In this document: in pieces, positions 578 to 27,297 of the stretch
Numbering within the stretch: the first letter of the stretch is position 1
How the letters are laid out: every line of letters starts with the position of its first letter
Source of the DNA: Burkholderiales bacterium 67-32
GTDB taxonomy: Bacteria; Pseudomonadota; Gammaproteobacteria; Burkholderiales; Burkholderiaceae_B
Direction of reading: 5' to 3'
Assembly: GCA_001898625.1 (NCBI GenBank)
Contig: MKUP01000024.1
Location: 1 to 49,513 of the forward strand
Length of the DNA stretch: 49,513 nt
Notes under the pieces: generated by a model
What the model was told of the DNA's origin: nothing
The model's database searches: none
The model's input: only the letters and a program-made list of their open reading frames with translations
Made by a program: the position numbers and the translations under genes

Positions 578-1426
578 TGCCGTCTGCAGCACGGGCCGGA
601 ACGTCAGCAATTCCATGCCGTTGTCGGGCATCCGCTCGATGCCCAGGACGTAACCGGGCAGCGACTGCCGCGCGACGAGCGCGCGCAGATCGCAGGCGAA
701 GTCGTAGGGCTTCGCGGTGCTGCCGGACTTCTGGTGCAGATAGCGAAAGTCGAACTGCCAGCCGTATGCCTGCTTGCCGCCGTGCTTGCGCACCAGGCGG
801 TACAGCCACCGCTCGATGCCGCCGGTGAGTCGGAAATACGCCGGGTCGATGGTCAGCACAAGGGCGGCGTCGAGCACGCCCGCGTAGAACCAGTCCGGCA
901 GGATCAGCTCGATGCCCAGCGGCGTGCCGCTGGCATCGGCCAGTTCCTTCCATTCGTTGATCCACGAAAAGCGGTGCAGGCGCCGGCCTGTTGTCTCGCG
1001 GATGGACGTGGCCACCGTGGTCGATTGCAGGCGATCCAGCGCGGCCTTGAGGCGCTGGTAGTCGCGCAGCGATTTGCCGCGCCCGATGAAGCGCAGGATC
1101 TCGTAGGGCGTCGCGCGCATCAGCCGCGACGGGCGCAGGCCCGCGTCCTTCGCTTCCACGATCTGCGAGGCCGCCCATATCAGCACGTCCGCATCCCAAA
1201 TCGTGGCGATGCCGTGCTCCTGCGTGCCCTCTACGCGGATCGTCACGTTGCCCGCACGAAAGTCGATGGGCTTGACCCGCTTGGACTTGCCGAGCGAGAA
1301 GAACGGATAGGCCATCAAGTCCTGGCTGTCGCGCGGCGCCATGTCGCCGGGCAAGGCGCGGAACAGGTCGAGCTGTTCGCGCTCCTGCAACGACCGCTGC
1401 CGGAACGGCAGCGCGGAGCTGGACAT
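569..1426 (-). CDS. repA: Replication initiator protein A (RepA family)
   Basis: A 285-residue protein with the composition of plasmid replication initiators of the RPA family carried by Tn4371-like ICEs. Recognisable stretches are DLMAYPFFSLGKSKR near residue 38, DADVLIWAASQI, the TPYEILRFIGRG segment and a C-terminal basic winged-helix-like part (WLYRLVRKHGGK). It would bind the iterons just beyond its stop codon and start replication of the excised element. It sits 26 bases downstream of the AlpA-like gene and upstream of parA, probably as one transcript. The ribosome site is weak. Length is normal. Confidence 0.85.
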   Translation of the reverse strand: MSSSALPFRQRSLQEREQLDLFRALPGDMAPRDSQDLMAYPFFSLGKSKRVKPIDFRAGNVTIRVEGTQEHGIATIWDADVLIWAASQIVEAKDAGLRPSRLMRATPYEILRFIGRGKSLRDYQRLKAALDRLQSTTVATSIRETTGRRLHRFSWINEWKELADASGTPLGIELILPDWFYAGVLDAALVLTIDPAYFRLTGGIERWLYRLVRKHGGKQAYGWQFDFRYLHQKSGSTAKPYDFACDLRALVARQSLPGYVLGIERMPDNGMELLTFRPVLQTARG

Positions 1427-3838: not shown

Positions 3839-4153
3839 TCACGCCGCCTGGAGCTTGCTGCGCGACCAGATCAGGTCGTGCGTACCGTCCTCGCCTTCGA
3901 TCAGGCGGGCATAGACCGGAGCCGGGAACGAAGGATCGTCGAGGGTCACGGACTTGTATTCCCGCCCGGCCTCGCTGGTCTTGTTCCACGCCGCGCCGAT
4001 GTCGTGGCCGGCGGCCTGGAGGCGGAAGTCGGGGGCGTTCTCGCTGCTGCCCTTGTCGTTGGGAACCAGCTTGACCTTGACGTTGAGCGTCAGGGTGCGC
4101 AGCGTGCCGGTGAAGCCGTCTTTGTCTGCGGTGAAGGTGCCGATGTTGGCCAT
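3839..4153 (-). CDS. DUF736 protein
   Basis: A 104-residue protein starting [21 protein letters not shown], the signature of DUF736, a family of small beta-rich proteins on ICEs and conjugative plasmids of unknown function. The C-terminal [18 protein letters not shown] segment also fits. The start at 4153 has GGAG eight bases upstream; longer readings of the frame run into the structured non-coding region and are not believed. It stands alone, downstream of a 1.1-kb structured spacer and convergent with XRE. Confidence 0.9.
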
Positions 4154-4271
4154 GATGATTTCTCCTTTCGGTTGAACAAGGTTCGCGCCCATCGCGTCCT
4201 TGTTGTGATCCCGCCGGCGGGGGACGGGCTGGCTGCACCGCTTGCGGTCGAAACGCAGTGGAGAGCCGGGA

Positions 4272-4329
4272 GGCGAAAAGAATTTGCTGCGCGAGGAAGC
4301 CGCGCAGCGGCGGGGAAATTGTTTTCGCC
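4272..4329. repeat. Long nested inverted repeat upstream of DUF736
   Basis: The outer arms GGCGAAAA (4272-4279) and TTTTCGCC (4322-4329) are extended inward by AATTT/AAATT, with a G opposite G at the junction. Inside, GCTGCGCG (4286-4293) pairs with CGCGCAGC (4301-4308). The AT-rich outer part is unusual in this GC-rich element. It may form a cruciform in DNA or a stable RNA stem. Confidence 0.65.
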
Positions 4330-4720
4330 GGACGGTTGCAGCCATGAAGCCCGAGGCGCAGCCGCGCCCCCGCCAGGATTCACAACGAGACAAGGACGCC
4401 TTGGGCCGAACCGCTCCAAAAGGAGATGGGGCCGACTCGGCATCCCCGCCCGAAGGCTTCTCCGGCTCGCCCGCTGACGCGCGCCAGGTCAACCCCGCAA
4501 CGACAGGCGAGAACGCCCCCGCCATACCTTGCGGCGCCGGTCTTGAGGCGTGGCGTGGAAGCTCCATAGTGATACCGGGCGGGTTGTCCGTGAACCGTCC
4601 TTCGTGACGTGATGGGCAGGAACCGCCAGCGTTGAGGACGGCACGCACCTGCACAACCTGCCGCAGCAAGCGCCAGCGTGTTCGCCAGCGTCCCGTCCAT
4701 CGCGGCGGGACGTTGGGCGG

Positions 4721-4834
4721 GCCGATCCGGCGCAGCCGGTTCGGCAGCATCGAGGGGCGCCAAGCATCGCGCGGCGGGGATAGCTCGCAGGGCTTTCCCC
4801 TGGAGGCAAGCGAAGCGCGCAGCGCCGCAGGCGC
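4721..4834. repeat. ICE dispersed structured repeat, copy S1
   Basis: Positions 4721-4822 are nearly identical to 9087-9188. Within it, GCCGATCCGG pairs with CCGGTTCGGC (4721-4745), and GGGGATAGCTC pairs with GGGCTTTCCCC (4776-4800). It ends in the 17-mer GCAAGCGAAGCGCGCAG (4806-4822), followed at once by hairpin GCGCC-gca-GGCGC (4822-4834). Confidence 0.75.
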
Positions 4835-5062
4835 GAAGGCGTGAGGGATTGAAGCCGAATGGCCGTGACGGCAAAGACGGCACGGGGCGTAGCCCGAAAG
4901 CCCGGCGGCGCTATGCGCCGACACGCCCAGGCCGTTCCAGATTTCTAAGCAGGAAACGCGGACATGCCTCTGATGAAATGGGCGCGGCCCTACGCTGCGA
5001 GGTATGCACGCGGCAATCCGAAAACCGCTGGTGATTCCCGCGCACGGCGGGCGCTACGGCTT

Positions 5063-5245
5063 GCAGGCCCATACGGGCCTGCCATTACCGGGCGGGAAGC
5101 CCGGTCACGTCAACGCCGCCGTCTGAACTGCCGTGATGGCGGCGGCGTTCCGATTCGGTTGCGGGCTTGGAACACCGGGCGCGGCCACTGCCGCGCCCGG
5201 ATTTTGCGTCCACCGCGCCCAGGTCGGAACGGCCTGGGCGCGGTG
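5063..5245. repeat. Array of five successive perfect inverted repeats
   Basis: The stems are GCAGGCCC/GGGCCTGC (5063-5082), ACCGGGC/GCCCGGT (5087-5105), AACGCCGCC/GGCGGCGTT (5112-5149), CCGGGCGCGG/CCGCGCCCGG (5175-5200, then ATTTT on the plus strand) and CACCGCGCCCAGG/CCTGGGCGCGGTG (5211-5245). The last lies ten bases past the stop of the minus-strand gene at 5256 and could end its transcript. Five clean stems in 183 bp is far more than a terminator needs. Confidence 0.7.
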
Positions 5246-5255
5246 CTGAACGCGG

Positions 5256-5465
5256 TTATTTCTTCGTCTCGATGAGCCACCACACGGCACGCGGCAAGGC
5301 GTGGCCCGTGATGGGATGAATGTCGGTGAGGTCAGCGCAAGCCGACCAGCCCAAGGGCGGGCGGTAGCCGCGCACGTCGCCGTCGCCGTGCCAGCGGCGG
5401 GCGCGCACCGTGCCGGGGGCGTAGATCGCCGCCATGCGCGGGCGGCTGGTGGTGGTGCGGGTCAT
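5256..5465 (-). CDS. Small ICE protein of unknown function
   Basis: A 69-residue basic, Trp-rich protein (MTRTTTSRPRMAAIYAP at the start; WHGDGDVRGYRPPLGW and ALPRAVWWLIETKK later). I do not recognise a family. The ATG at 5465 has AAGGAG eight bases upstream, which supports it as a real gene and fixes the start. It follows parB on the same strand after a strong hairpin, and precedes the structured spacer S1. No signal peptide or membrane segment is seen. Confidence 0.65.
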   Translation of the reverse strand: MTRTTTSRPRMAAIYAPGTVRARRWHGDGDVRGYRPPLGWSACADLTDIHPITGHALPRAVWWLIETKK

Positions 5466-5485
5466 GGGGGCTTCTCCTTGCAGCG

Positions 5486-5513
5486 AAGCGCCCCGGTCGA
5501 GGCCGGGGCGCTT
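5486..5513 (-). terminator. Perfect 11-bp hairpin after parB
   Basis: AAGCGCCCCGG (5486-5496) pairs with CCGGGGCGCTT (5503-5513) over a 6-base loop. It sits 15 bases past the parB stop and just upstream of the start of the small gene at 5465. It may be an attenuating terminator or an mRNA end. It resembles the stem at 3804-3831. Confidence 0.55.
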
Positions 5514-5527
5514 GCCTTCGGCGCGGG

Positions 5528-7600
5528 TCAAGCGGCCAGCGCCTCGGCTGGTTCATCCGCCCTTGCTTCGGCATCCTCCGGTGCGTCCTGCTCCGGGCCT
5601 GCCTCCTGCGCGCTTTCGCGTACTGCCTGCTGCGGGCCTTCGGCCTTGAAGATGGCGGGCATCCAGCCCGTACCATCGGCCAGCCGCTCGGCTTCGCTGG
5701 CAATGTCAGCCTTCTTGCGTTTCGCCAGTCGGGTGACGGATTCCGGTGCAAATGCGCCCACGGCATCCAGAATCACGGCCTTGGAAACGTGCTTGAAGTA
5801 GCCTTCTGCGGTCGGCTTCCACCATGCGGCCATGTCGAGGCCCACGGCCTGCGCCAGTTCCTCGCCGGGCTGGTATGGCGTGGCGCGGGGCGTTACCACG
5901 TCCACCGTGGAAGCCACGCACACGGCCAGCAGCCGCACCAGTTCGTCTTGCGACTTCGCCAGCAGCGCGGCGAACAGTTCGGCGCTGTCCTGCGGCAAGG
6001 CTTCGCCCGCCAACTCTTGCAGTTCGCGCAGCGCCACGGCGGCGGGCGATTCCGGCCAGTCCGGGGCCCTGCCTTCTAGCCGGTCTTGCGCCGTGAGGCG
6101 CACGCCCAGCGGCAGGCCGTCGCCGTAGGCGTCGGGTTGCAAGACGCTCTGCACCATGCCATGCACCAGCGCGGCCAGCGCGACGTGCGGATGCCGCGCG
6201 ACTTCGATTTGCAGCGCCGCCGTGCGGTGGGCGCTCAACCGCTGCGCCAGCCGGTCGGACAGGCTCGCGGCCTTGGGCGCGTCGTCGGCGTCCTCGTGCT
6301 CGTCGTTAGCGGCTTCGCCTTCGGTGTTGCCGAAACCGCGCCGCAGCTTTTCCAGCGTGCGCAGCGCCTTGGCCTCGGCTTCGCGCAGCAGACCGCGATG
6401 AATGACGGCCTCGCCGTTGCGGTCGATGGTGACGATCGCACCGGCCACCTCGCGCACCTCGGGGGCATAGCCTTGTAAGGCATCCTCCACGTCTTGCAGT
6501 TCGCCGACCACCTGATCGCGCCGCTGTTCCAGCTTCTCGGCCTTGGCTTCGTCCTCGCTGCTTTCACCTTGGCAGGCTTCTTCCAGCTCGGCGTCGATCT
6601 TTTCGAGGCGGCTTTCCAGCGAGGCGATGCGGCGGGCCTCGCGGCTGGTCGGCTCGCGGCGGTGGCGCGGGGCGTTCTGGAACGCCTGCCGTTCCTCGTA
6701 GGCCAGATGCGGCACGGCCTCCACCCATGCCCAACCCTCGGCGCGCACGTCCTCGGCCAGCGTTGCCAGCTTGTCGCGCACCAGTGTTTCCAGCACTGCG
6801 GTATCGGTGAGGTAGGTTCCGGCATCGCCTTCTGCGAACAGGTCGCGGCGGACGCCGCCGCCTGCCTGCCGGTAAGTGTCCAGCCCGACGAAGCGCACCA
6901 GCGCGTGCGAGGCGTCGATTTCGCGTTCGGTCAGGCGCTCGCGCAGCTTGGACGGGCTGCGCTGCCATTCCGGCGCACCATAGAACGCGGCTTCCTGCGC
7001 GGCGTGGTCGTCGGTGATGGTCAAGGCCATCAACTGTTCCAGCGTGACGGTTCCGGCGCGGTAGTCGGCCATCAGGCGCGGCGCGATGTGGGCGAGCTTC
7101 AAGCGGCGCTGCACCACCAGCGGGGACACGCCGAAGTCGGCGGCAATGTCCTCGATGGGCCGGCCTTCCTTGACCAGCGCGACGAACGCCTCGAACTGGT
7201 CGGCGGGGTGCATCTGCTCGCGCATCAGGTTTTCCGCGAGGCTGACGGTACGGGCCGAAGCATCGGGCACCAGCAGGCACGGCACTTCGTAGTCGGCGGG
7301 GATGCGCTTCTTCTTCGCCAGCAGCTTCAAGGCGGTCAGTCGGCGGTCGCCTGCCACCACCTCGTAAGCCTCGCCATCTGCGGAAAGGATGACGATCAGG
7401 TTTTGCAGCAGGCCGATGCGGGCAATGCTCGCGGCCAGTTCGGGGATGGACAGGCGCGGCATCTTGCGGGCGTTGCGCTTGGAGCGGCGCGGCAGCAACT
7501 GCGAGAGCGGAACCAGAATCAGGTTCTTGGACGGGTCGGCCATTTCCAGCGGTGCGGCGGCTTCGATGGCGACGGCTTCGGTTTTGAGTACGGCGTTCAT
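5528..7600 (-). CDS. parB: ParB/RepB-family partition protein, long form
   Basis: A 690-residue protein. The ParB/Srx-like N-domain is at about residues 28-125: LLQNLIVI, VVAGDRRLTALKLL (box I region) and SLAENLMREQMHPADQFEAF (box II with ENxxR). It is followed by a helix-turn-helix at about 140-165 (IEDIAADFGVSPLVVQRRLKLA). The large C-terminal part contains a charged coiled coil at about 320-375 and ends in an acidic tail. It is about twice the length of chromosomal ParB, as is normal for ICE-type ParB. The start at 7600 has AAGGAG. With ParA it should help keep the excised element; parA is not adjacent but in the same element. Confidence 0.92.
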   Translation of the reverse strand: MNAVLKTEAVAIEAAAPLEMADPSKNLILVPLSQLLPRRSKRNARKMPRLSIPELAASIARIGLLQNLIVILSADGEAYEVVAGDRRLTALKLLAKKKRIPADYEVPCLLVPDASARTVSLAENLMREQMHPADQFEAFVALVKEGRPIEDIAADFGVSPLVVQRRLKLAHIAPRLMADYRAGTVTLEQLMALTITDDHAAQEAAFYGAPEWQRSPSKLRERLTEREIDASHALVRFVGLDTYRQAGGGVRRDLFAEGDAGTYLTDTAVLETLVRDKLATLAEDVRAEGWAWVEAVPHLAYEERQAFQNAPRHRREPTSREARRIASLESRLEKIDAELEEACQGESSEDEAKAEKLEQRRDQVVGELQDVEDALQGYAPEVREVAGAIVTIDRNGEAVIHRGLLREAEAKALRTLEKLRRGFGNTEGEAANDEHEDADDAPKAASLSDRLAQRLSAHRTAALQIEVARHPHVALAALVHGMVQSVLQPDAYGDGLPLGVRLTAQDRLEGRAPDWPESPAAVALRELQELAGEALPQDSAELFAALLAKSQDELVRLLAVCVASTVDVVTPRATPYQPGEELAQAVGLDMAAWWKPTAEGYFKHVSKAVILDAVGAFAPESVTRLAKRKKADIASEAERLADGTGWMPAIFKAEGPQQAVRESAQEAGPEQDAPEDAEARADEPAEALAA

Positions 7601-7679
7601 GGTGATAACTCCTTGCGGTTAGGGATGCAGCAGCGAGAGAAGCGGCTAGGGCTGCTGCCTGCCCCTGCCGCGTGGGGAT

Positions 7680-8504
7680 TCAGGCTTTCAACTGGCGCAG
7701 GCCATCGGCCAGCAGCCACAGGGCGCGATTCAGGCGCACGCTTTGGTCGATGCCCTGCACGGGCCGGGTGGTCTGGCGGCGGCCACTCGCGGCGCGGGCG
7801 GACAGGCCGCCTTTGGTCAAGTTCTCCTGCGTGCGGTTGAACACGCTCCACAGGTCGCGGCGGTCGTCGTCATGGCGGCGCGGCATCAGGATTTGCGATT
7901 CCGTGATGGGCGCGGGCTTGTCCTCGTCGTACTTCAACGCCAGCGCAGCGCGGGCGAACACTTCCGATTCCCCGGCGTCGAGCGTGATGGCGCGCATGGC
8001 ATCGCGGGATTCCTGCGCCCGGTCGAAGCCGTGCAAGACTTCGTAAGCGCCTTCGATGACGTGCCCGGCTACGTCGCCCTTGTGGGGTACGCGCACGTCC
8101 GCCACGGTGTCGCCGCAGACAAGGCCATTGCTGCATACGAACCGAAACATCCCGGCCAGCATCTGATAGCTGCTGGTGCCGTCATGGGAGTTCAGCAGGA
8201 TGATTTCGTTGGCCTCGCGGCCGTTGATCTGGCTCGCGTGGCGCAGCCGGATCATGTGCTTGGTGTAGTCGCGGCGGTCGTCGTGGCGCACGCGGGTTTG
8301 CGTCACCATGAAAGGCTCGAAGCCTTCCCCCCGCAGTTCTTGCAGCACGGTAGCGGTGGGGATGTAGCTGTACCGCTCGGAGCGGCTTTCGTGCGGGGCG
8401 TCCGCGAAGATGGACGGAGCCACGGCCCGGATTTGGTCGTCGGACAAGGGACGTTCCGAACGCAGCACCGGGGAACGGGAAGCGAAGCGGGATGCGAGTT
8501 GCAT
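7680..8504 (-). CDS. DUF932 protein
   Basis: A 274-residue protein of the DUF932 family (phage/plasmid-related), found on ICEs next to parB and DUF736; function unknown. Recognisable parts are RSERYSYIPTATVLQEL near residue 42, FMVTQTRVR, the EIILLNSHDGTSSYQMLAGMF segment and FVCSNGLVCG. The start at 8504 follows AGGAG. It lies 79 bases upstream of parB, likely in the same transcript. Upstream of it stretches the non-coding spacer S2. Confidence 0.88.
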   Translation of the reverse strand: MQLASRFASRSPVLRSERPLSDDQIRAVAPSIFADAPHESRSERYSYIPTATVLQELRGEGFEPFMVTQTRVRHDDRRDYTKHMIRLRHASQINGREANEIILLNSHDGTSSYQMLAGMFRFVCSNGLVCGDTVADVRVPHKGDVAGHVIEGAYEVLHGFDRAQESRDAMRAITLDAGESEVFARAALALKYDEDKPAPITESQILMPRRHDDDRRDLWSVFNRTQENLTKGGLSARAASGRRQTTRPVQGIDQSVRLNRALWLLADGLRQLKA

Positions 8505-8848
8505 GATCTTTCTCCTGACAAAGAAAAAAAGGTTTGCTGTTCACCGCACACCGGATTCCTAGATTCGGAGCCCAGCCTTTCGGCTGTTTGGTGCGGTCGG
8601 CACGAGGAACCCGGTTGGCCCTGTTGCCACCGTCTTTCCTGAGTTCATCGCCCGCGACGGTCAGGAGCGCGCGGACGGGGGCCGTCAAGGAGGCAAGCGC
8701 AGGGTTGGTGCGGCCCGCAGGCGCAGCCGAGGACACGGCCCTGCGCGCCTTGACGGCACACGGCCGCGGGCTACAGTCGCGGACAAGGTGATGAAGTCAG
8801 GGGAGACGGCTGGGCATGGCAACGGCCCCTCCACACGCCGACCGCACG

Positions 8849-9010
8849 GCAAGCGAAGCGCGCAGGCCCGAAGCTGGAAGCCGGGCCGTAGGCGTCAGCC
8901 GAGCGGAGCGAGGGAACGATGGAAGCCCGTCAGGGGCGAGACGCCGCAGGCGGCTCGATGCGCTACGCGCACGAGAGCGCGACCGGCCATGTTTCTTGGC
9001 CGGGGACGCC
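8849..9010. repeat. ICE dispersed structured repeat, copy S2a
   Basis: The 17-mer GCAAGCGAAGCGCGCAG (8849-8865) is followed by hairpin GGCCCG/CGGGCC (8865-8887). Next come the shared linker GATGGAAGCCCG, hairpin CGCC-gca-GGCG (8942-8952), the linker GCTCGATGCGC, and hairpin CCGGCC/GGCCGG (8983-9003), ending GGGGACGCC. The same order is seen in 12431-12564 with different but still pairing stems. Confidence 0.75.
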
Positions 9011-9086
9011 CTGACTTCAAGGCTCGATGCACAAGCTCATGCGCCAGTCATCGGGAAACAGGTTCGACAGCGACTGCTGTGGTCTG

Positions 9087-9203
9087 GCCGATCCGGCGCA
9101 GCCGGTTCGGCGGTCTTTGAGGGGCGCCAAGCATCGCGCGGCGGGGATAGCCCGAGGGCTTTCCCCTGGAGGCAAGCGAAGCGCGCAGTGCCCCGCAAGG
9201 GGC
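9087..9203. repeat. ICE dispersed structured repeat, copy S2b
   Basis: About 90% or more identical by eye to 4721-4822. The stem GGGGATAGCCC/GGGCTTTCCCC is at 9143-9166. The 17-mer at 9172-9188 is followed by hairpin GCCCC-gcaa-GGGGC (9190-9203). It ends ten bases before the stop codon of the gene at 9213. Confidence 0.75.
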
Positions 9204-9212
9204 GCGCAGGCA

Positions 9213-9491
9213 TCACGCCGAGTCGTCAGGGCGCAGGCTGGATTCCGATACCGGCATCCACGGCGATGACGAGTCCAGCAGGTAGCGCGCACCGTGCGCG
9301 TACAGACCCGACAGCCCGGTGGGCTGGTAGAACCCGGTGACGCGGCGCCGGAACTGTGCGCCGTACTCGTTAGCGTAGATCACCGCGTCGCCGATCTTGA
9401 AGCGCAAGGGCTGGCCGTTCTCCGGCGCGAACGGCTTGAGCGCATCGTGCTGTGCTGTGATTTCGATGATGTAGTCGTGATGGCTGCTCAT
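9213..9491 (-). CDS. Small ICE protein of unknown function
   Basis: A 92-residue protein, MSSHHDYIIEITAQHDALKP at the start, with GQPLRFKIGDAVIYANEYG, FRRRVTGFYQP and ARYLLDSSSPWMPVSESSL. It looks like a small beta-rich cytoplasmic protein. I do not recognise a named family. The start at 9491 is preferred because the upstream part is poorly conserved-looking, although the ribosome site is weak; an ATG at 9524 is possible. It is downstream of DUF2958 copy 2 on the same strand and probably cotranscribed. Confidence 0.65.
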   Translation of the reverse strand: MSSHHDYIIEITAQHDALKPFAPENGQPLRFKIGDAVIYANEYGAQFRRRVTGFYQPTGLSGLYAHGARYLLDSSSPWMPVSESSLRPDDSA

Positions 9492-9556
9492 GGCATTGAT
9501 CTCTTTCGATGGTCGAGAAAGCACAAGGAGCGCCTTGCAGCGCTCCCACGGCCAGG

Positions 9557-9907
9557 TCAGACAGCGATCCGCCCGGCCAAGCGCGCATCGCGCGCATAGG
9601 CGCTCAACCGCTTCTCGGCGCGGAAAGACAGGTCGCGCTCAATCGGCAGGCCCAGCCCGCCGCGCACCGTCGCCAGTTCGCCCAGGCTGACCCAGCCGAT
9701 TTCCGGCGCCCCCAAGCCCAGGTCGCAAAGACCAAAGGCGTGGTCGTGGTCATCGGGATCAATCTCGGTCAGTAGCCAGGTCGCGCCGGCGTCCGGCGTG
9801 AACAGCTTGACCACGGGGGCCGGATCGAAGTCCGGGTTCTCCAAGGATTCGCGGCCGTTGGTCAGCAGCACGATGCGCTGCTCGTCGGTGATGAGTGCGT
9901 TGTTCAT
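9557..9907 (-). CDS. DUF2958 protein, copy 2
   Basis: A 116-residue protein paralogous to 2897-3247. Shared core: PVVKLFTPDAGATWLLTEIDP, FGLCDLGLGAPEIG and ERDLSFRAEKRLSAYARDARL. The start at 9907 has AGGAG six bases upstream. It differs at many positions from copy 1 but has the same length, so the two are old paralogues and not a recent duplication. Its function is unknown. Upstream lies the repeat-containing spacer S3. Confidence 0.87.
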   Translation of the reverse strand: MNNALITDEQRIVLLTNGRESLENPDFDPAPVVKLFTPDAGATWLLTEIDPDDHDHAFGLCDLGLGAPEIGWVSLGELATVRGGLGLPIERDLSFRAEKRLSAYARDARLAGRIAV

Positions 9908-10176
9908 GGTGAACTCCTGAAAGGTTGCCGGGTGGAATTGCCCGACCCTTCCAGGGCACGGCGGAGCGCAAGCAGTCAGGGGTCAACGACGGCCGCCAGG
10001 ACGCAAGCGCCGTCGGCGCGCAGCCCTTGACGGCGAGAACGCCGTGGCGCGATGAGGGGAACAGCAAGACCGCCTCCCTCGCACCTCCACGTACTCTGGT
10101 TTTCGGTAAGCGAAGCGCGCAGGCCCGAATAGCCATCCGGGCCGGAAGCATCAGCGATGTGAAAGGCGGGTTGTTC
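9908..10176. repeat. Spacer S3: shortened copy of the ICE structured repeat
   Basis: Positions about 9938-10160 align with 12260-12484. Shared stretches include GGAATTGCCCG, GCAGTCAGGGGTC, GACGGCCGCCAGGACGCAAGC, GCAGCCCTTG, CACGGCGAGAACGCCGTG-like text and CAGCAAGACCGCC. The 17-mer variant GTAAGCGAAGCGCGCAG (10106-10122) is followed by hairpin GGCCCG/CGGGCC (10122-10143). The likeness stops at GATG (10160), just before the nreB stop codon, so the distal hairpins are missing. Confidence 0.72.
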
Positions 10177-11487
10177 TTAAATGCGCGCCCAGTCCCGGTG
10201 CAGATCGTCAACGATCATGGGATGACGGTGCCCGCCTCGGTCTGCATGTTCGCGCAAGTGAGGATGATCGGGCGGTAGATCAGGGTGATCGTGGGCGATG
10301 TCGGAAGAATCTCTAGCGGGCCAGAGCCACAGCGCCAGTCCCACTCCGACAAGACCAATCAGCGACATGATGATGAAGGTCGATTGCAGCCCAAAGGCAG
10401 CGCCGAAGCGACCGGCCAAGGGATAGCAAATGAGCCAGCACGCATGGGACAGGGCGAATTGCGCGGCAAAGACCGCAGGGCGATCCTCGGGATGAGCGGA
10501 GCGGCGCAACAGCCGGCCGGAAGGTGTTTGCGCCACGCTGTAGCCGAAGCCGACCACAAACCAGATCACCACCAGAACGGCATAGGTCGGAATCATTGCC
10601 CCGGCTGCCGTTCCCACAACCAGCATCGTCGCTCCCGCAATCATGACAGGTCGATCAGCAATCTTGTCGAGCAGGCGAGGCAGCGCGAAGGCCGCAACCA
10701 TCGACCCGCCTCCGAAGGCCGCCAGCGCCCACGCCACCTCGGATTCGCCCAGGCCGAAGCGTGCCTTCACGATGACCACCGTGTTCACGATCACCATTGA
10801 CCCCGCTGCTGCCACAGCGAGGCTGATCGCCAGCAGACCCCGAAGGCGCGGTGTGGCGAGGTAAATGCGCGTGCCCCGCGTAGTGCGATCCCATATGCCA
10901 CGACGCGGGCCGGGAACGGTTGTGGGAAGCCTCACGCTGACCACCAGCGCTGCTGACACGAGGAAGCCGAGAACCGTTCCGGCAAACAGGTTGTGGAAGC
11001 TGATGACCGTCAGTAGCGCGGCGGCCAGCATCGGGGAAATCAGGCTTTCCAAATCGTAGGCCAGCCGGGAAAGCGACAGTGCTTTCGTGTACTCGTCTTC
11101 GTCCGGAAGGATGTCTGGGATAGTGGCTTGAAAGGCCGGCGTGAAGCCTGCGGACGCCGCTTGCAAGACGAAGATCAGCAGATAGATTTGCCAGATTTCG
11201 CTGACAAAGGGCAAGCAGAGCGCAACGGATGCTCGTACTAAGTCAAGGGCAACGAGCAACGACCGTCGCGGCAGCCGGTCGGCGAAAGCCTGCGCGACCG
11301 GGGCGACTCCGACATAGGCAAGCATTTTTATGGCAAGTGCCGTTCCGAGTACCGCGCCGGCATTCGCCCCGGCCAGATCGTAGGCAAGCAGGCCAAGGGC
11401 TACCGTCATCAGGCCCGTGCCGACAAGCGCAATCACTTGAGCGGCGAACAGGTGACGGTAGGTACGGTTCTTCAGGACGGAGAGCAT
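10177..11487 (-). CDS. nreB: NreB-like nickel efflux permease (MFS)
   Basis: A 436-residue major facilitator with about 12 hydrophobic segments (residues about 8-32, 42-62, 95-115, 150-185, 215-240 and on to about 400). It opens MLSVLKNRTYRHLFAAQVIA and ends in a His-rich tail of about 40 residues with eight His (AHDHPDLPPDHPHLREH and on). This fold-plus-tail is that of NreB, which exports Ni2+ by proton antiport. It starts ten bases after the nreA stop, with its Shine-Dalgarno GAGG overlapping that stop. Nickel is the expected substrate; cobalt cannot be excluded. Confidence 0.85.
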   Translation of the reverse strand: MLSVLKNRTYRHLFAAQVIALVGTGLMTVALGLLAYDLAGANAGAVLGTALAIKMLAYVGVAPVAQAFADRLPRRSLLVALDLVRASVALCLPFVSEIWQIYLLIFVLQAASAGFTPAFQATIPDILPDEDEYTKALSLSRLAYDLESLISPMLAAALLTVISFHNLFAGTVLGFLVSAALVVSVRLPTTVPGPRRGIWDRTTRGTRIYLATPRLRGLLAISLAVAAAGSMVIVNTVVIVKARFGLGESEVAWALAAFGGGSMVAAFALPRLLDKIADRPVMIAGATMLVVGTAAGAMIPTYAVLVVIWFVVGFGYSVAQTPSGRLLRRSAHPEDRPAVFAAQFALSHACWLICYPLAGRFGAAFGLQSTFIIMSLIGLVGVGLALWLWPARDSSDIAHDHPDLPPDHPHLREHADRGGHRHPMIVDDLHRDWARI

Positions 11488-11496
11488 CGGCGGGCC

Positions 11497-11754
11497 TCAA
11501 AGCAGTTTGGTCAGTGCCTTCATTTCGGTCAAAACGGAGTCTTCGTCATGCGCTAGGCAATGGTCGATGTGGTCGTGGATCAGGACGCGCTTTGCGGCCG
11601 TGACCGCGCTTTCCACCGCCGCGAGCTGGCGGGCGATGTCGAGACAGGATTCCCCACTTTCGATCATCCCTATGACGTGCCGAAGATGACCATCGGCACG
11701 TTTCAGCCGCTTCACGAGATCGGGATGGGTTGAGTGCTTGTGTGTCGCGTTCAT
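11497..11754 (-). CDS. nreA: CsoR/RcnR-family metal-sensing repressor (NreA/DmeR-like)
   Basis: An 85-residue all-helical DUF156 repressor: LVKRLKRADGHLRHVIGMIE, ESCLDIARQLAAVESAV, then LIHDHIDHC. Cys37, His62 and Cys66 fall one residue past the CsoR Cys-His-Cys ligand positions. The His-rich N-terminus (H5, H7, H10) recalls the Ni/Co sensors RcnR and DmeR. It should bind the 21-bp palindrome directly upstream and release it on metal binding, switching on itself and nreB. The start at 11754 has no leader (see promoter). Confidence 0.87.
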   Translation of the reverse strand: MNATHKHSTHPDLVKRLKRADGHLRHVIGMIESGESCLDIARQLAAVESAVTAAKRVLIHDHIDHCLAHDEDSVLTEMKALTKLL

Positions 11755-11760
11755 GTGGTA

Positions 11761-11795
11761 ATTATATCCCCCCTGGGGGGATATGGAAAAGTGCG
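11761..11795 (-). promoter_or_regulatory. nreAB promoter and GC-tract operator
   Basis: A perfect palindrome ATATCCCCCC-T-GGGGGGATAT fills 11764-11784, the G/C-tract operator type bound by CsoR/RcnR proteins. On the minus strand a consensus -10, TATAAT, is at 11766-11761. Seventeen bases upstream is TTTCCA, a 4/6 match to the -35. The operator therefore fills the promoter spacer. The expected transcription start falls on or next to the ATG at 11754, so the mRNA looks leaderless. Confidence 0.8.
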
Positions 11796-11837
11796 CCGCC
11801 CGCGAAGGAGCGACGCACCGAGGGCCGCACGACGCAA

Positions 11838-12230
11838 TCAGCCCGCCGTCGGCGCCGTCATCGACTGCAAGTGCTCGATCACGCCAGGCTCAACGAACAC
11901 GCAAGCCTGCTCGTCCGCGATCGGCACGTTGAACACCTGCGCGAACACCGTGCGCCGCAGATGGGCCAGCCGGCCCGTCCGGTACGCCTGCTCGGGCTTC
12001 ATACGCCCGCCAGCCTGCGAGCCGCTGCGCTGCGGATCGCATTCGACCAGCGCGACAAAGCCATCGTCGGCCAGCTTCTGATGCTCGGGGCACAGGCCCC
12101 AGCCAGTCGCCGTGTGGCGCTCCAGGCTCGCGCGCAGGCGCTTGTCCAGCAGGATCGCGCCGGTATCGAACGTCGTGCCGCAGACCAGGCAAACGTGCTG
12201 TTCGAGGGAAACGTGTGATTTGTCGTTCAT
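11838..12230 (-). CDS. ICE protein with a Cys-rich N-terminal motif, unknown function
   Basis: A 130-residue protein. Near the start HVCLVCGTTFDTG, then 30 residues on GLCPEHQK, give a Cys-x2-Cys / Cys-x2-His set that could bind zinc. The rest (FVALVECDPQRSG, RTVFAQVFNVPIADEQACVFVEPGVIEHL) is acidic and globular. I do not recognise a named family. The start at 12230 has GGAG, and the upstream reading is repeat sequence. It belongs to the ICE backbone, with nreAB inserted on its 3' side. Confidence 0.65.
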   Translation of the reverse strand: MNDKSHVSLEQHVCLVCGTTFDTGAILLDKRLRASLERHTATGWGLCPEHQKLADDGFVALVECDPQRSGSQAGGRMKPEQAYRTGRLAHLRRTVFAQVFNVPIADEQACVFVEPGVIEHLQSMTAPTAG

Positions 12231-12582
12231 GACGGTTCTCCGGTTGCAAGGGCGGAATTGCCCGGAACCGTCGGCCTCACGGCGCAGCGCAGCAGTCAGG
12301 GGTCGCAGACGGCCGCCAGGACGCAAGCGCGCACCGCGCGCGCAGCCCTTGCACGGCGAGAACGCCGTGATACGGTGAAGGGACACAGCAAGACCGCCCC
12401 CTCACACCACCCTACGCACGCGGGTTTTAGGCAAGCGGAGCGCGCAGGCTCGGATCAGCGAGCCGGGCCGGAGGCGTAAGTGATGGAAGCCCGCATGGGG
12501 CGAGACTCGCGCAGCGAGGCTCGATGCGCAGCACGACAGCGCGACGGCGGCACGCCGGGACGCCAGACTGCTTGGGAAAGGA
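12231..12582. repeat. Spacer S4: full copy of the ICE structured repeat
   Basis: No gene. Positions 12260-12484 match spacer S3. The 17-mer variant GCAAGCGGAGCGCGCAG (12431-12447) is followed by hairpin GGCTCG/CGAGCC (12447-12464). Then come linker GATGGAAGCCCG, hairpin CTCGC-gca-GCGAG (12506-12518), linker GGCTCGATGCGC, and hairpin CGGCG/CGCCG (12545-12557), ending GGGACGCC. The stems differ from copy S2a yet still pair. Confidence 0.75.
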
Positions 12583-13647
12583 CTACTCGTTGTCGGTCTT
12601 GCGCTGCTCGATCTGCAACTGCGCCCGCTGCGTTGCCTGTTGCAGTCGCTCCACCAGCACGCCCCTCGGCGGCAAGGCGGTCAGGTACTCGGCGACGTGG
12701 ATGCCTGACTTGTCCAGCTCCAGCAATTCGATCTGCTCGCGTTTCTTGCCGGTGCAAAGGATGATCCCCAGCGGCGAGGCTTCCTCCGGCTCGCGTTCGT
12801 GCTTGTCCAGCCAGCGGAGGTAAAGCTCCATCTGTCCGTTGAAAGCCGCCTTGAACTCACCGACCTTCAACTCCACTGCCACCAGCCGCCGTAGCTTGCG
12901 GTTGTAAAACAGCAGATCGAGATGGAAATCCTCGCCGTCAATTTGGATGCGCTTCTGCCGGGCCACGAAGCTGAAGCCCGCGCCAAGCTCCAACAAGAAC
13001 GACTCCATTTCGCGGATGATCGCCGCCTCCAAGTCGCCTTCCTGCCAAGTGTCCCGCAGCCCCAGGAAGTCGAGGATGTACGGGTCGCGCATGACCAGGG
13101 CGGGCGACATGCGCTGCGCATCGCGCATCGTCGCCAGTTCCTGCGCGATCGTCTCGCCCGGCTTTTGGGACAGCGCCGTGCGCTCGTACAGCATCGAGTC
13201 GATGCGCTCGCGCAGCGTCCGCACGCTCCAGCGTTCGGCGCTCGCCATCTGCGCGTAGTAGTCCCGCTGGAGCGGGTCTTTCAGCGGCATTAGTGCGATG
13301 AAGTGCGTCCAGCTCAATTCTCGTATCAGTGATACGAGAATCTGCTCGTCGGGGAAGGTGGCCGCGAACTGCACCATGCGGCGCAGGTTCTGCTCGGCAA
13401 AGCTGCTGCCGTATTCCTTCACCAACTGCGCCGCCAAGGTGGGCAGGACTTCTTTGCCATAAGCGCCCCGGCGCCCATCCAAGACCTGCGTGTGGATGCG
13501 CTGGCCGATGCGCCAGTAGAGCATCGTCAGCTCGCTATTCACCGTCGAGGCGGCGCGCTTGCGCGCCTCCTCGATCAGTACCCGAATGTCGCCCAGCAGC
13601 GCCAAAGGCGCTGCGGACGATGCTGCGGATGACCGGCGCCCATTCAT
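12583..13647 (-). CDS. DUF1016 / PDDEXK-nuclease family protein (YhcG-like)
   Basis: A 354-residue protein. The N-terminal DUF1016 helical domain (residues about 15-165; ELTMLYWRIGQRI, LVKEYGSSFAEQNLRRM and LSWTHFIALMPLKDP) is followed by a PD-(D/E)xK nuclease domain. In it FHLDLLFYNRKLRRLVAVELK supplies the Asp and Glu-x-Lys catalytic set. The family is widespread on mobile elements; roles in recombination or defence are proposed, not settled. Its ATG overlaps the integrase stop (ATGA, 13644-13647), so the two are translationally coupled. Confidence 0.85.
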   Translation of the reverse strand: MNGRRSSAASSAAPLALLGDIRVLIEEARKRAASTVNSELTMLYWRIGQRIHTQVLDGRRGAYGKEVLPTLAAQLVKEYGSSFAEQNLRRMVQFAATFPDEQILVSLIRELSWTHFIALMPLKDPLQRDYYAQMASAERWSVRTLRERIDSMLYERTALSQKPGETIAQELATMRDAQRMSPALVMRDPYILDFLGLRDTWQEGDLEAAIIREMESFLLELGAGFSFVARQKRIQIDGEDFHLDLLFYNRKLRRLVAVELKVGEFKAAFNGQMELYLRWLDKHEREPEEASPLGIILCTGKKREQIELLELDKSGIHVAEYLTALPPRGVLVERLQQATQRAQLQIEQRKTDNE

Positions 13648-14843
13648 GCCGTCGCCTCCGCAAGCTGCCGCGTGCCCGTGATAGCCTGGCGCCGGCTGGC
13701 CACCAGCTCGGCCGCATCGCGCACCGGCTTGTCTTCGGTGTGGACGTAGTGCATGAACATCGCTACGGTCTTGTGGCCCGTTAACTTCATGCCCACTTTG
13801 GTCGGCACGCCCGAATTGGCAATGTCGGTGGTCGAGCGATGGCGGATGCCGTGCGTGCCGACGTGCGGGACGCCGGCGGCCTTGAGCACCCGGCACCAGC
13901 CGCCATAGTGCTCGCCAAAAGTCAGGTGTTTGGTCGGGTCATTGGGCGATGGCAGGACATAGGGGCAGCCCTCCCGACGCGGTGCCGTCGAAAGCAGCCG
14001 ATACGCTTCCTCGCTCATGGGCTTGGAAATGCCGCCGACCTTGCTGTCGGGCCACACCACGCGCCGGTTCTCGAAGTCCAGCCAGCTCCATTGGAGCGGG
14101 CAGATTTCGGAGCGCCGTGCGGCAAACTCGAATTGCAGCCGGATAGCCAACGGAATGACGTAGTTCTCCAGCCCTTCCGCCTCCAGCTTCTCCAGATGGC
14201 GGAAGATCCGCACCATTTCCTCGTCCACGATGAGCCGGGTTTCCTTGCCCGGCGGGTACATCGGGACGTGGCGGCACGGATTCGTGCCGTCCGAGCGGTA
14301 GCCCCACACTTCGGCCAGGTTGAACATCTTGCGCAGCACGCCGAAGGTCTTGTTCGCCTCGGTCGGCTTGTAGGCCAGCTTCTCCATCAGTGCAGCAATG
14401 TCGGGCCGCTTCACGTCATGCACCTTCTTGCGGCCCAGCAGCGGGATGATGTTGCGGTCGATGACGCCCTGATAGCCGTCCTGCGTGCTGGGCTTGTTGC
14501 GCTTCTTGGAGTAGTCCTCCATGAACTTCTTGCACAACTCGGCCATCGTGGGCGCCTTGCGCGCCTCGGCCTTGGCGCCGCCGGGGTCGCCGCCCCGGCG
14601 AACCTCGGCCAGCCAGTCCTGTGCCTTGACTCGTGCCTGTTCGACGGTCAGCTCCCCGTACAGCCCCAGCGAGGGCTTGCGGGGCTGGCCGGAGTTCGTG
14701 CGGTACTGGAGCATGAACACCCGGCGGCCCGTCGGGGTAATCTTGCACAGGAAGCCAGGCACCACGGTATCCCGCAGTTCAATATCCTTGGCCTGGGGCT
14801 GGGCCGCCTCCACGGCGGTCTTGGTGAGCTTGATCTTTGCCAT
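13644..14843 (-). CDS. int: Tyrosine recombinase integrase, Tn4371 type
   Basis: A 399-residue site-specific recombinase. It has the N-terminal DUF4102-like arm domain (MAKIKLTKTAVEAAQP and onward), a SAM-like core-binding domain at about 95-195 and a catalytic domain at about 210-390. The catalytic domain shows the Arg in EFAARRSEICPL, the HxxR in GTHGIRHRSTTDIA and the nucleophile region LTGHKTVAMFMHYVH. The start at 14843 has AAGGAG five bases upstream; a longer frame to 14873 lacks this. It lies at the element edge reading inward, as integrases of this family do, and is coupled to the nuclease gene. Confidence 0.93.
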   Translation of the reverse strand: MAKIKLTKTAVEAAQPQAKDIELRDTVVPGFLCKITPTGRRVFMLQYRTNSGQPRKPSLGLYGELTVEQARVKAQDWLAEVRRGGDPGGAKAEARKAPTMAELCKKFMEDYSKKRNKPSTQDGYQGVIDRNIIPLLGRKKVHDVKRPDIAALMEKLAYKPTEANKTFGVLRKMFNLAEVWGYRSDGTNPCRHVPMYPPGKETRLIVDEEMVRIFRHLEKLEAEGLENYVIPLAIRLQFEFAARRSEICPLQWSWLDFENRRVVWPDSKVGGISKPMSEEAYRLLSTAPRREGCPYVLPSPNDPTKHLTFGEHYGGWCRVLKAAGVPHVGTHGIRHRSTTDIANSGVPTKVGMKLTGHKTVAMFMHYVHTEDKPVRDAAELVASRRQAITGTRQLAEATA

Positions 14844-23455: not shown

Positions 23456-24402
23456 CAGGAAAGATCGGGGTTCCAACCCCGCACGAAGACATCGGCCGGC
23501 TGGCGCTTGCCGCCGGCCTTCTGCAATTCGGTCAGGCGTAGGATGCCCTGGCCGGTAGCCAGATCCACCCCGGCGGCACCCGCGCGCACGACACTGCTGG
23601 GGCTGGCCCGCGATGCCTCGTCCAGCGCCTCGGCCCGCCACACCTTGACCGGATCGGCCAGGCCGGGCAGCCGCACCGTGGCGCCCGGGACCGGATTGAA
23701 GGCCAGGATGCGGCGCGCCAGCTCGGCGGCGGGGCGCGAGCAGTCGAGCGCCGCTTCGGCCTTGTCCAGCTTGGCGGCGTAGGTGACGCCCTCGGCGGGT
23801 TGCGGCGTGGCGGGCAGGCCGCCTTCCTCCAGGCGCGCCAGCGCCCCCACGATCAGTTCGCCGCCCAGCACGGCCAGGCGGTCGTGCAGTTCGCCGGCGG
23901 TCTGGTCCGCCTCGATGGGCAGCGCCCCTTCGAGCAGCATGTCGCCGGTATCCAGGCCGGCGTCCATCTGCATGATGGTGATTCCGGTCCGCGCGTCGCC
24001 CGCCTCGATGGCCCGCTGGATCGGCGCGGCGCCGCGCCAGCGCGGCAGCAGGCTGGCATGGATGTTCAGGCAACCCAGCCGGGGGATGTCCAGCACCGCC
24101 TGGGGCAGGATCAGGCCGTAGGCGGCCACGATCATCGCATCGGCCCGCGCCGCGCGCAGGGCCGCGTGGGCCTGCGCGGCCTCATCGGGATACTTGCCGT
24201 CCAGCCGCAGGCTGCGCGGTTGCAGCACCGGCGCGCCCACCTCCAGCGCCGCCGTCTTGACCGGACTGGGCGTCAGCTTGAGCCCGCGCCCCGCCGGCCG
24301 GTCCGGCTGGGTCAGGACCAGGGCGATCGTATGCCCGGCCTTGACCAGGGCCTGCAGGGCGACTTTTGCGAATTCCGGCGTACCGGCAAAAACCAGATGC
24401 AT
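23455..24402 (-). CDS. fmt: Methionyl-tRNA formyltransferase
   Basis: A 315-residue cytosolic enzyme that formylates initiator Met-tRNA using 10-formyl-THF. The N-domain has [15 protein letters not shown] at the start, the [20 protein letters not shown] signature (Asn and His of the catalytic triad) and DAGLDTGDM (Asp). The C-terminal OB-type domain covers about 210-310. It sits between def and rsmB in the same direction, the common order. Length is normal. Confidence 0.96.
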
Positions 24403-24410
24403 CTAGAGTA

Positions 24411-24489
24411 CCCCCCTACGCGCTTCGCGCGCCCCCCAGGGGGCGATGCGAGTGGACCGGCGGAGCCGGATCCACCGCATCCTGGATAG
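24411..24489. repeat. Chromosomal extragenic palindromic repeat, copy 1
   Basis: Pattern: C-run, TACGCGCTTCGCGCG, CCCCCCAGGGGG, then GGACCGGCGGAGCCGGATCC and CCTGGATAG. It contains three small palindromes. It lies upstream of fmt, between it and def. Related copies are at 36349, 37111, 43834 and (inverted) 44004. Confidence 0.75.
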
Positions 24490-27047: not shown

Positions 27048-27297
27048 CCCCCTGTATTACTCCCCCTTACCGCGCGCCCAGTATGGTGCGCCCCCAGCCG
27101 CCACGCGGCAGCCCCCAAGGGGGCCGGGGGTTGTTTTCAATGGAAACAAGTCTTAATCCGGGGCGCTTCGGAGGGCGAAGCCGGTGTTTTTTGGCTTGGT
27201 GGGCATAGGCCCGACTTGCGCTGCTTAAAAATCCCCCCGTATCATCCGGCGCTTTGACGCACGATTTGTTCGCGTCGGCTCCGTCAACTGGAAGTCA
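27048..27297. other. Non-coding spacer smg-topB
   Basis: It contains a degenerate form of the chromosomal extragenic repeat (about 27061-27130: C-runs, CCGCCACGCGGC, CCCCCAAGGGGGCCGGGGG). A more AT-rich stretch before topB probably carries its promoter. No gene is seen. Confidence 0.45.

Follow-up and report, generated by a model that had tools for sequence, protein, structure and literature searches.

The genes of the leading region of conjugative elements, which encode SSB, anti-restriction and anti-SOS proteins and many DUFs, aid the establishment of the element in a new host. Two described systems come closest to the motif considered here: the single-stranded DNA promoters of plasmid F, called Frpo, which reportedly go back to the work of Masai and Arai in 1997, and the CUP repeats of IncN plasmids, which are said to go back to that of Delver and Belogurov in the same year. 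According to the sections consulted of a more detailed account, Frpo1 and Frpo2 are single-stranded DNA promoters of F, each a single stem-loop in which −35 and −10 boxes are re-formed; removal of Frpo1 and Frpo2 abolished the early expression of downstream genes, and Frpo-like sequences are also present in ColIb-P9 (PMC9849209). The CUP (conserved upstream) repeats of the IncN plasmids pKM101/R46 are described, in the consulted part of another report, as binding sites of ArdK (PMC6289460), and the ArdK-regulated promoters of R388, in a similarly partial source, as double-strand promoters bound by that protein (PMC9723621). Large-scale surveys of single-stranded DNA promoters, as far as their consulted parts tell, have used similarity to five known Frpo/ssi sequences, and also candidates from promoter boxes combined with predicted folds.

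The stretch of DNA analysed here, hereafter the window, comprises 49,513 nucleotides of Burkholderiales bacterium 67-32 (contig MKUP01000024.1) and carries one end of a Tn4371-type ICE. An earlier note on this DNA had listed five copies of a 17-mer, at 4806, 8849, 9172, 10106 and 12431, and all five were found again, all on the + strand, with no mismatch at 4806, 8849 and 9172 and one at 10106 and 12431. When up to three mismatches are allowed, the window holds seven matches, against 1.14 ± 1.06 expected, and seven were reached in none of 100 shuffles; the two further matches (three mismatches, − strand, at 24416 and 36354) are not within the ICE portion. The arms of the first hairpin and the shared linkers GATGGAAGCCCG and CTCGATGCGC were re-read and are correct as given in that note. 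Its view that the copies at 8849 and 12431 are the two fuller ones holds in that both are complete, but the copy at 4806 is complete as well and is the best match to our model R1.

Three copies show in full a common branched fold, about 125 nt long, which we call the core: copy 1 at 4804–4931 (124.3 bits), copy 2 at 8847–9014 (88.6 bits, with an extra insert after P1) and copy 5 at 12429–12568 (99.1 bits). The copies at 9172 and 10106 are remnants that keep the 17-mer and HP1 (9170–9223, 28.3 bits; 10104–10236, 30.8 bits, the remainder being replaced in the latter). The likeness of the 10106 copy to the 12431 unit stops at about 10159, the repeat being 9923–10159 with 12242–12485. Another internal repeat, 4714–4840 with 9080–9211 (89%), includes a hairpin-rich + strand stretch that adjoins core copy 1 (4714–4805) and is shared with 9080–9169. 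The structure of copy 1, projected from the model onto the identical copy L014, consists on the + strand of HP1 (4822–4834), P1 (4838–4843 with 4922–4927), P2 (4845–4850 with 4898–4903), P3 (4854–4863), P4 (4864–4884), P5 (4885–4895, with a GTA triloop) and HP6 (4906–4920). The hairpins that the earlier note described thus belong to a single nested fold, which is closed by an outer stem and contains a junction.

Among 118 distinct relatives, 34 of the 36 pairs of this fold have changes on both sides. The covariation is 0.398, against 0.116 ± 0.005 in shuffles, which do not correct for phylogeny, and none of 500 shuffles reached the observed value; sliding the partners by one to three columns lowers it to 0.026–0.064. 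These values support the earlier proposal that a folded RNA or single-stranded DNA is under selection. It should be mentioned that A3, as an alignment fitted to the model, is biased towards it, and that in alignment A5 (16 copies) one measure of five, the number of further pair types, did not exceed the shuffles (75/500). Folded alone, seven copies as DNA gave z values from −2.95 to +0.22, and three copies as RNA, on both strands, from −1.06 to +0.47; single-copy folds are therefore mostly unremarkable and not decisive, and the case for the fold depends on the alignment. A conserved reading frame was considered and rejected, the six frames being stop-free in no more than 45 to 71 of the 112 copies each. 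The PLSDB rows listed have no annotated feature under the match in 38/40, 24/25, 23/25 and 60/60 cases; four of the five other rows are records without annotation, and one has a hypothetical protein there. A core in F (13094–13173 of L181) likewise overlaps an annotated hypothetical gene.

Whether the folded molecule is RNA or DNA can be judged from mispairs, loops and strand. The ratio of G.T to A.C mispairs is 56:38 in 28 well-aligned pairs, after removal by hand of eight of the 36 pairs that were misaligned between subclasses; it is 92:92 over all 36 and 47:30 under another cut-off (26 pairs). Three controls from SRP and 6S RNA are far more skewed, at 21:0, 58:5 and 42:7; their alignments hold 27 to 30 distinct sequences against 118 motif rows, and because rows are related, the counts are not independent. 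Of 273 triloops, 187 are of the GNA type, which has exceptional stability in DNA, and 9 are of the opposite-strand form. The + strand folds better than the − strand in 105 of 112 copies as DNA and in barely more than half (69/112) as RNA. A GNA triloop on a two-pair stem is not expected to be stable in RNA. The 17-mer contains just such a GC-GNA-GC mini-hairpin in 85 of 90 pattern-fitting copies, and this kind of stem is stable in DNA, according to the consulted part of a structural source (PMC4686876). A structured RNA of the + strand, either a divergent or an antisense small RNA that regulates leading-region genes, would account for the strong + strand covariation, for the modest excess of G.T over A.C and for promoter-like boxes that point rightwards to core copy 2 (described below); given the skew of the controls, the weak strand preference in RNA folding and the two-pair stem, we consider it improbable. 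Mispairs, loops and strand together speak for single-stranded DNA of the conjugative T-strand rather than for RNA, and the core is very probably a T-strand single-stranded DNA structure of leading regions.

The genes beside the copies in the window all lie on the − strand, so that the folded + strand is their template strand. The earlier note had placed every copy upstream of a backbone gene, and this is the case for four: core copy 1 lies beside a DUF736 domain (3860–4147, within ORF 3839–4924; Pfam PF05284, 4e-34), core copy 2 beside a DUF932 gene (7680–8504; PF06067, 2.3e-55), the remnant at 10104 beside a DUF2958 gene (9557–9907; PF11171, 3.3e-42) and core copy 5 beside an ORF without family (11890–12249), for which Pfam and NCBIfam searches returned zero matches. 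The copy at 9172 is the exception: it comes after the 8849 copy and lacks a gene of its own on the left side. Across elements, the core is upstream of the gene on its expected side in 31 of 39 copies, and in the other 8 the gene on that side has the opposite direction (counted by eye from annotated tables and the window, excluding remnants and weak matches); cores thus lie mostly 3', on the folded strand, of genes that have this strand as template. This arrangement would also suit a leader that acts in cis within the downstream gene's mRNA, that is, a − strand RNA. In R388, however, the ardC promoter, identified via the operator in the consulted part of PMC9723621 (TTGACA repeats and CATAAT on the gene strand, near 23560–23625), stands between ardC and the core at 24045. 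Because of this promoter we reject the leader as very unlikely; moreover, on the − strand the G.U count equals the A.C count of the + strand, 38 against 56, and the GNA loops are on the + strand.

The same core is found in R388, R46, pWW0, a PromA plasmid and F, and the folded strand is the inferred T-strand for 36 copies in 14 records with an inferable oriT side. For the window we infer, from gene order and the mapped oriT of a Tn4371-family ICE, that the + strand is the T-strand. In the IncP plasmid pJS3066, four strong copies are opposite to the T-strand and a fifth, weak match is on it; the segment with the four opposite copies looks acquired. Neighbouring matches no more than 25 kb apart are on the same strand in 111 of 111 cases among the matches listed (places copied by hand from contigs with several matches, with R1 scores from about 40 bits upwards), a count that leaves out pairs farther apart, some of which are opposite (G344:C1, G863:C6, G963:C34 and G1002:C1). 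One weak match of model R2 (G237:C2:172874, 49 bits) is on the opposite strand to neighbours 2.8 kb away. Units are duplicated within elements, at 95% in R388, 89% in F, 87% in R46 and 99.8% in Xanthomonas, and in R388, R46, F, pWW0 and a Xanthomonas plasmid the repeat units end at the 3' end of the core or within about 25 bases of it. These duplications, with the remnants at 9172 and 10106, could suggest a repeat that moves or recombines and thereby rearranges the genes of the leading region, with a fold used by a transposase or recombinase. On the contrary, the strand concordance and the pair-preserving divergence imply a strand-specific function, and just 20 of the 398 genomes across the phylum have matches at E ≤ 0.001; we find such a repeat scarcely credible.

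The earlier note knew of no named element for the motif. Rfam agrees, since at the motif no family reaches its gathering score in the window, searches of 4400–12800 gave chance matches only (above E 3), and 20 related loci gave just a tRNA and a C4 RNA, both away from the motif. The statement is nevertheless right only in part, as the core borders two repeats of R46 and is apparently at Frpo1 and Frpo2 of F: model R1, built without F, has two matches in the F leading region (E 2e-6 and 3.6e-4), both on the inferred T-strand, and the core is present in both copies of the F repeat. The consulted parts of the literature on Frpo, ArdK and CUP do not mention a branched core.

Like the core, Frpo belongs to the leading region, lies on the inferred T-strand and stands beside leading genes. 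Core copy 2 also adjoins a giant single-strand hairpin of Frpo-like layout between DUF932 and the core (8560–8850, + strand; −103.1 kcal/mol as DNA, z −8.39, 0/200 shuffles). In its 3' arm, we read promoter-like boxes on the + strand (8750–8777), TTGACG (8750–8755) and TACAGT (8772–8777), separated by 16 nt; among the 8 aligning relatives of 9 compared, the −35-like box is TTGACG in 6 and TTGATG in 2, and the −10-like box TACAGT in 6 and TACGGT in 2. We rejected the idea that every window copy has such a hairpin, because three of the four core-adjoining window stretches that were tested fold no better than shuffles (z −1.14, +0.57 and −0.80), and neither does a stretch adjoining a core in R388 (z −1.52). 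Unlike Frpo, the core itself is branched, lies beside the hairpin and is box-free, no promoter boxes having been seen inside it. It was also expected in ColIb-P9, and this was rejected: neither model found a core there, despite the Frpo-like sequences of this plasmid.

As the best reading of these results we propose the following. The motif would be the conserved core of a leading-region unit and would fold in the transferred single strand (the T-strand, + in the window) on entry into the recipient, where the core and the hairpins between core and gene may start synthesis on the single strand, either by RNA polymerase, as at Frpo, or as a primer for the complementary strand. The adjoining gene would thereby be expressed, or turned double-stranded, first. 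The part of the core itself may lie in recruiting RNA polymerase, a primase or another protein, in keeping SSB away, or in bounding the unit. That the core is a T-strand module of leading-region expression/priming units of conjugative elements seems to us somewhat probable, and for the expression/priming role itself we see even chances. We regard as equally balanced the broader reading that the cores form one natural family of structured single-stranded DNA, its branched architecture held by covariation and DNA-stable GNA loops. This family would be common to F, to R388 and to various alpha-, beta- and gammaproteobacterial ICEs and plasmids, and would serve in the incoming T-strand as a cis-acting platform that marks each leading-region gene for expression or duplex conversion ahead of the remaining element. 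Candidate partners of the platform are RNA polymerase, a primase or a leading-region protein. A narrower possibility is a loading site for a primase or primosome (ssi) for the complementary strand only, with no role in transcription. Synthesis primed at the core towards oriT would convert the adjoining gene, together with its promoter, to duplex, and in three records (L047, L048 and L277) the core lies directly behind an stb-type operon that adjoins oriT and, this operon being on the other strand, cannot be its promoter. In F, however, the core shares its repeat with Frpo, whose activity is in gene expression, and we think a pure loading site rather unlikely.

To our knowledge, covariation-supported families of functional single-stranded DNA are rare, and the core offers a concrete object for studying gene activation from single-stranded DNA. 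A signature based on structure extends to ICEs and to IncN, IncW, IncP-9, PromA and alphaproteobacterial elements, and predicts the entering strand and the genes meant to act first.

The comparison with CUP is similar in kind. Like the core, CUP elements are dispersed repeats upstream of leading-region genes, and we take the leading-region repeats beside the core in R46 to be CUP elements. The two bordered by a core are upstream of ccgA and ccgD, and a further core is behind stbC; at the unit in front of ardA a core match is lacking, which means that not every unit is accompanied by a core. Whereas CUP is described as a set of sites bound by ArdK, the core forms a module apart. In R388, cores precede ardC and the gene at 19210–19554; for the ArdK-regulated promoters of this plasmid, the consulted part of PMC9723621 mentions no folded core. 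The ICE part of the window yielded no ArdK-type direct repeat, a silence that says little because the pattern also missed the sites of R388 itself. The same pattern has one match in the chromosomal part of the window, at 27282, and five − strand sites in the leading region of pWW0.

The dispersed motif of the window belongs to conjugative leading regions, as an element with conserved structure and strand specificity, and the finding of the earlier note as a whole stands. The five 17-mers lie where that note had placed them, at 4806, 8849, 9172, 10106 and 12431, all on the + strand; with up to three mismatches there are seven matches, a number that none of 100 shuffled sequences reached. The core, comprising the 17-mer and the fold that follows it, is complete at 4804-4931, 8847-9014 and 12429-12568. 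One end of a Tn4371-type ICE lies in the window, with genes for replication initiator A, DUF2958, HTH, DUF736, ParB and DUF932 in the same order as in the related loci L009 and L012, followed by the chromosomal genes TrkH, TrkA, RsmB and PrfC. Because the window is the entire contig, the oriT side of the ICE is missing from it. At the break of the 10106 copy, 10160-11760 holds a gene for an MFS transporter together with a small ORF without known family, which looks like an insertion of cargo into this core unit or next to it.

When 14 copies were aligned, drawn from the window and from five plasmid records, the hairpins of the motif proved to be parts of a single nested structure on the + strand. 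The 17-mer is followed by the hairpin HP1 and by the outer stem P1 (GGCGT/ACGCC), which encloses P2 and a further hairpin, HP6; P2 (GnGaTn/nAgCnC), which contains an A.G mismatch, is the closing stem of a junction formed by P3, P4 and P5. A covariance model built from the 14 aligned copies (R1) recovers five copies in the window: three are full (124.3, 99.1 and 88.6 bits) and two, at about 30 bits, are remnants. Covariation was assessed in 126 R1 matches from 100 loci, 118 of them distinct. In the distinct copies, standard pairs make up 92.3% of the pair cells and 34 of the 36 pairs have changed on both sides; the covariation score is 0.398, compared with 0.116 ± 0.005 after shuffling (0 of 500 reach it), in an alignment that was fitted to R1 and is therefore biased towards the structure. 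Sliding the pair partners lowers the score to 0.026-0.064. Sixteen divergent copies aligned by MAFFT, with no fitting to the model, give 0.320 against 0.112 ± 0.017 shuffled (0/500) and 0.034-0.083 with slid partners, the structure having been set after inspection of the same alignment and one of five measures not exceeding the shuffles.

The earlier note had proposed selection on a folded RNA or single-stranded DNA. Selection on the fold is upheld, and of the two molecules the changes fit DNA: three tests, of mispairs, loops and strand folding, agree on this. In folded RNA, G.U is much better tolerated than A.C. Where Watson-Crick pairs are the majority in a pair column, RNA controls, taken from genomes belonging to the same family and class, gave G.T:A.C counts of 21:0 (SRP RNA), 58:5 (6S RNA) and 42:7 (SRP RNA, class-wide); the motif gave 92:92 over all 36 pairs and 56:38 over the 28 that align well. 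Since the ratio inverts when read from the opposite strand, the RNA pattern is present on neither strand. Triloops account for 273 of the 376 hairpin tips examined, and 187 of them are GNA on the + strand, while nine have the form expected from GNA on the opposite strand; the GNA share is highest in P5 (82/92) and lowest in HP6 (21/62). GNA loops closed by at least two G-C pairs have extraordinary stability in DNA (PMC4686876). Of the 118 distinct copies examined, 90 fit the pattern, and 85 of these contain a GC-GNA-GC mini-hairpin within the 17-mer itself; R388 has CCCC-GATA-GGGG at this position, which supports a hairpin here. The + strand folds better than the - strand in 105 of 112 copies with DNA parameters and in 69 of 112 with RNA parameters.

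In PLSDB (72,556 records), BLASTN found similar DNA in 225, 472, 99 and 835 records, depending on the copy used, in overlapping sets; 690 of the 835 are typed as conjugative. At E <= 0.001, R1 has matches in 20 of 398 genomes phylum-wide and in 6 of 369 class-wide; by family, the counts are 69 of 250 for that of the window and 46 of 248 for another one of the same class. R2, a covariance model from divergent copies, has matches in 20 of 299 genomes phylum-wide. Among the matches listed, all 111 pairs of neighbouring R1 matches at most 25 kb apart agree in strand; they come from 51 genomes, with a median gap of 3.8 kb. Contigs C18, C8 and C9 of the window's own genome bear more R1 matches (L035, L089, L091 and L092), three of them together on C18, and the genome probably contains a second conjugative element.

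The mapped oriT of a Tn4371-family ICE lies in the spacer between traF and traI (PMC11448139), the essential inverted repeat lying towards traI from the presumed nic region. The T-strand, the single strand transferred in conjugation, presumably leaves towards traF, which we take to be the usual rule for such relaxases, and thus, with the gene order of L009 and L012, towards RepA, DUF2958, DUF736, ParB and DUF932. On these grounds, the + strand of the window should be the T-strand. With oriT taken as lying between the stb-type genes and the relaxase operon (R388 type) or else upstream of mobC, the folded strand is likewise the presumed T-strand in R388, R46, pN-Cit, pEco-36682cz, pWW0, a PromA plasmid and plasmids of Xanthomonas, P. 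hydrolytica, B. glumae and Stenotrophomonas, and, with the oriT placed next to traM, in F; the Tn4371 rule gives the same result for a Bradyrhizobium plasmid and for ICEs within an IncC and an IncHI1 plasmid. The total is 36 copies in 14 records, with presumed oriT sides and including a few weak matches and three copies known by BLASTN only; L274, L276 and three further pECO-109b copies were left out of the count. The counter-case is the IncP plasmid pJS3066, in which four strong copies lie opposite to the presumed T-strand, on a segment that looks like acquired, ICE-derived DNA. These copies form two identical-scoring pairs (L010 and record NZ_CP143313.1, 105561-106295).

R1, which was built without F, has two matches in the leading region of F, on its presumed T-strand (E 2e-6 and 3.6e-4). 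Both border a 559-bp, 89% repeat on one side, upstream of ssb and of leading genes closer to oriT, and lie apparently at Frpo2 and Frpo1, single-stranded DNA promoters of F. According to PMC9849209, Frpo1 and Frpo2 are 92% alike, about 5 kb apart and upstream of ssb and of ygeA/ygeB, and after removal of either, early expression of the downstream genes tested was not significant. In F the core adjoins a long hairpin (z -6.45), and the DUF932 copy of the window has the same layout: 8560-8850, beside the core, is one giant hairpin (z -8.39, 0/200 shuffles). Its 3' arm carries TTGACG-N16-TACAGT, with the boxes kept as TTGACG/TTGATG and TACAGT/TACGGT in eight of nine aligned relatives. RNA polymerase might start at these boxes, run off the hairpin base and copy the T-strand through DUF932. 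Comparable excess folding was absent beside three other window copies and one R388 copy, and no core was found in ColIb-P9, so the core and the promoter hairpin are separable. The element is probably one of the things that let leading genes act while the second strand is still incomplete; any physical action of the core is putative.

Inspection of 39 copies by eye showed that in 31 the nearest gene 5' of the core, on the core's strand, has this strand as its template. Of the eight exceptions, three sit directly behind an stb-type operon beside oriT; there, a priming site would be a better fit than a promoter. This position is seen at L047 12284, L048 22047 and L277 17001, with neighbour genes on the opposite strand. 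In R388, a role of the core as mRNA leader is ruled out because the ardC promoter is situated between ardC and the core. R388 has direct repeats of about 650 bp, 95% identical (19565-20213 and 23561-24219), each ending with a core, one upstream of ardC and the other upstream of the gene at 19210-19554. Internal duplications stop near the 3' end of the core (24219 vs 24220 in R388; 23882 vs 23883 and 26387 vs 26388 in R46; 15209 vs 15213 in a Xanthomonas plasmid; at most about 15 bases away in pWW0 and about 23 in F), which makes the core the outer end of the duplicated unit. The R46 unit at ardA had no core match. The Xanthomonas plasmid L013 also has a match to C4 antisense RNA at 682-766 (+), with 57.7 bits.

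Published accounts, in the portions available, deal with promoters formed by stem-loops, with promoter repeats bound by protein and with BLAST searches that start from known Frpo sequences (PMC11541004, PMC12826799, PMC9849209, PMC9723621, PMC6289460). A branched conserved fold is absent from these portions for Frpo (PMC11541004, PMC12826799, PMC9849209), ArdK (PMC9723621) and the IncN repeats CUP (PMC6289460), and the main text of PMC11541004 lacks the words ICE, IncN, IncW, Tn4371 and R388. Such an element appeared in no title or abstract found, a search whose scope excluded the original Frpo and CUP papers and most subscription literature, so its absence is unproven. At the ICE end of the window, after the fifth core copy, a gene for a YhcG/DUF1016-type PDDEXK nuclease lies at 12583-13896 (-); in L012, a PDDEXK nuclease gene adjoins the integrase gene and also a core copy.
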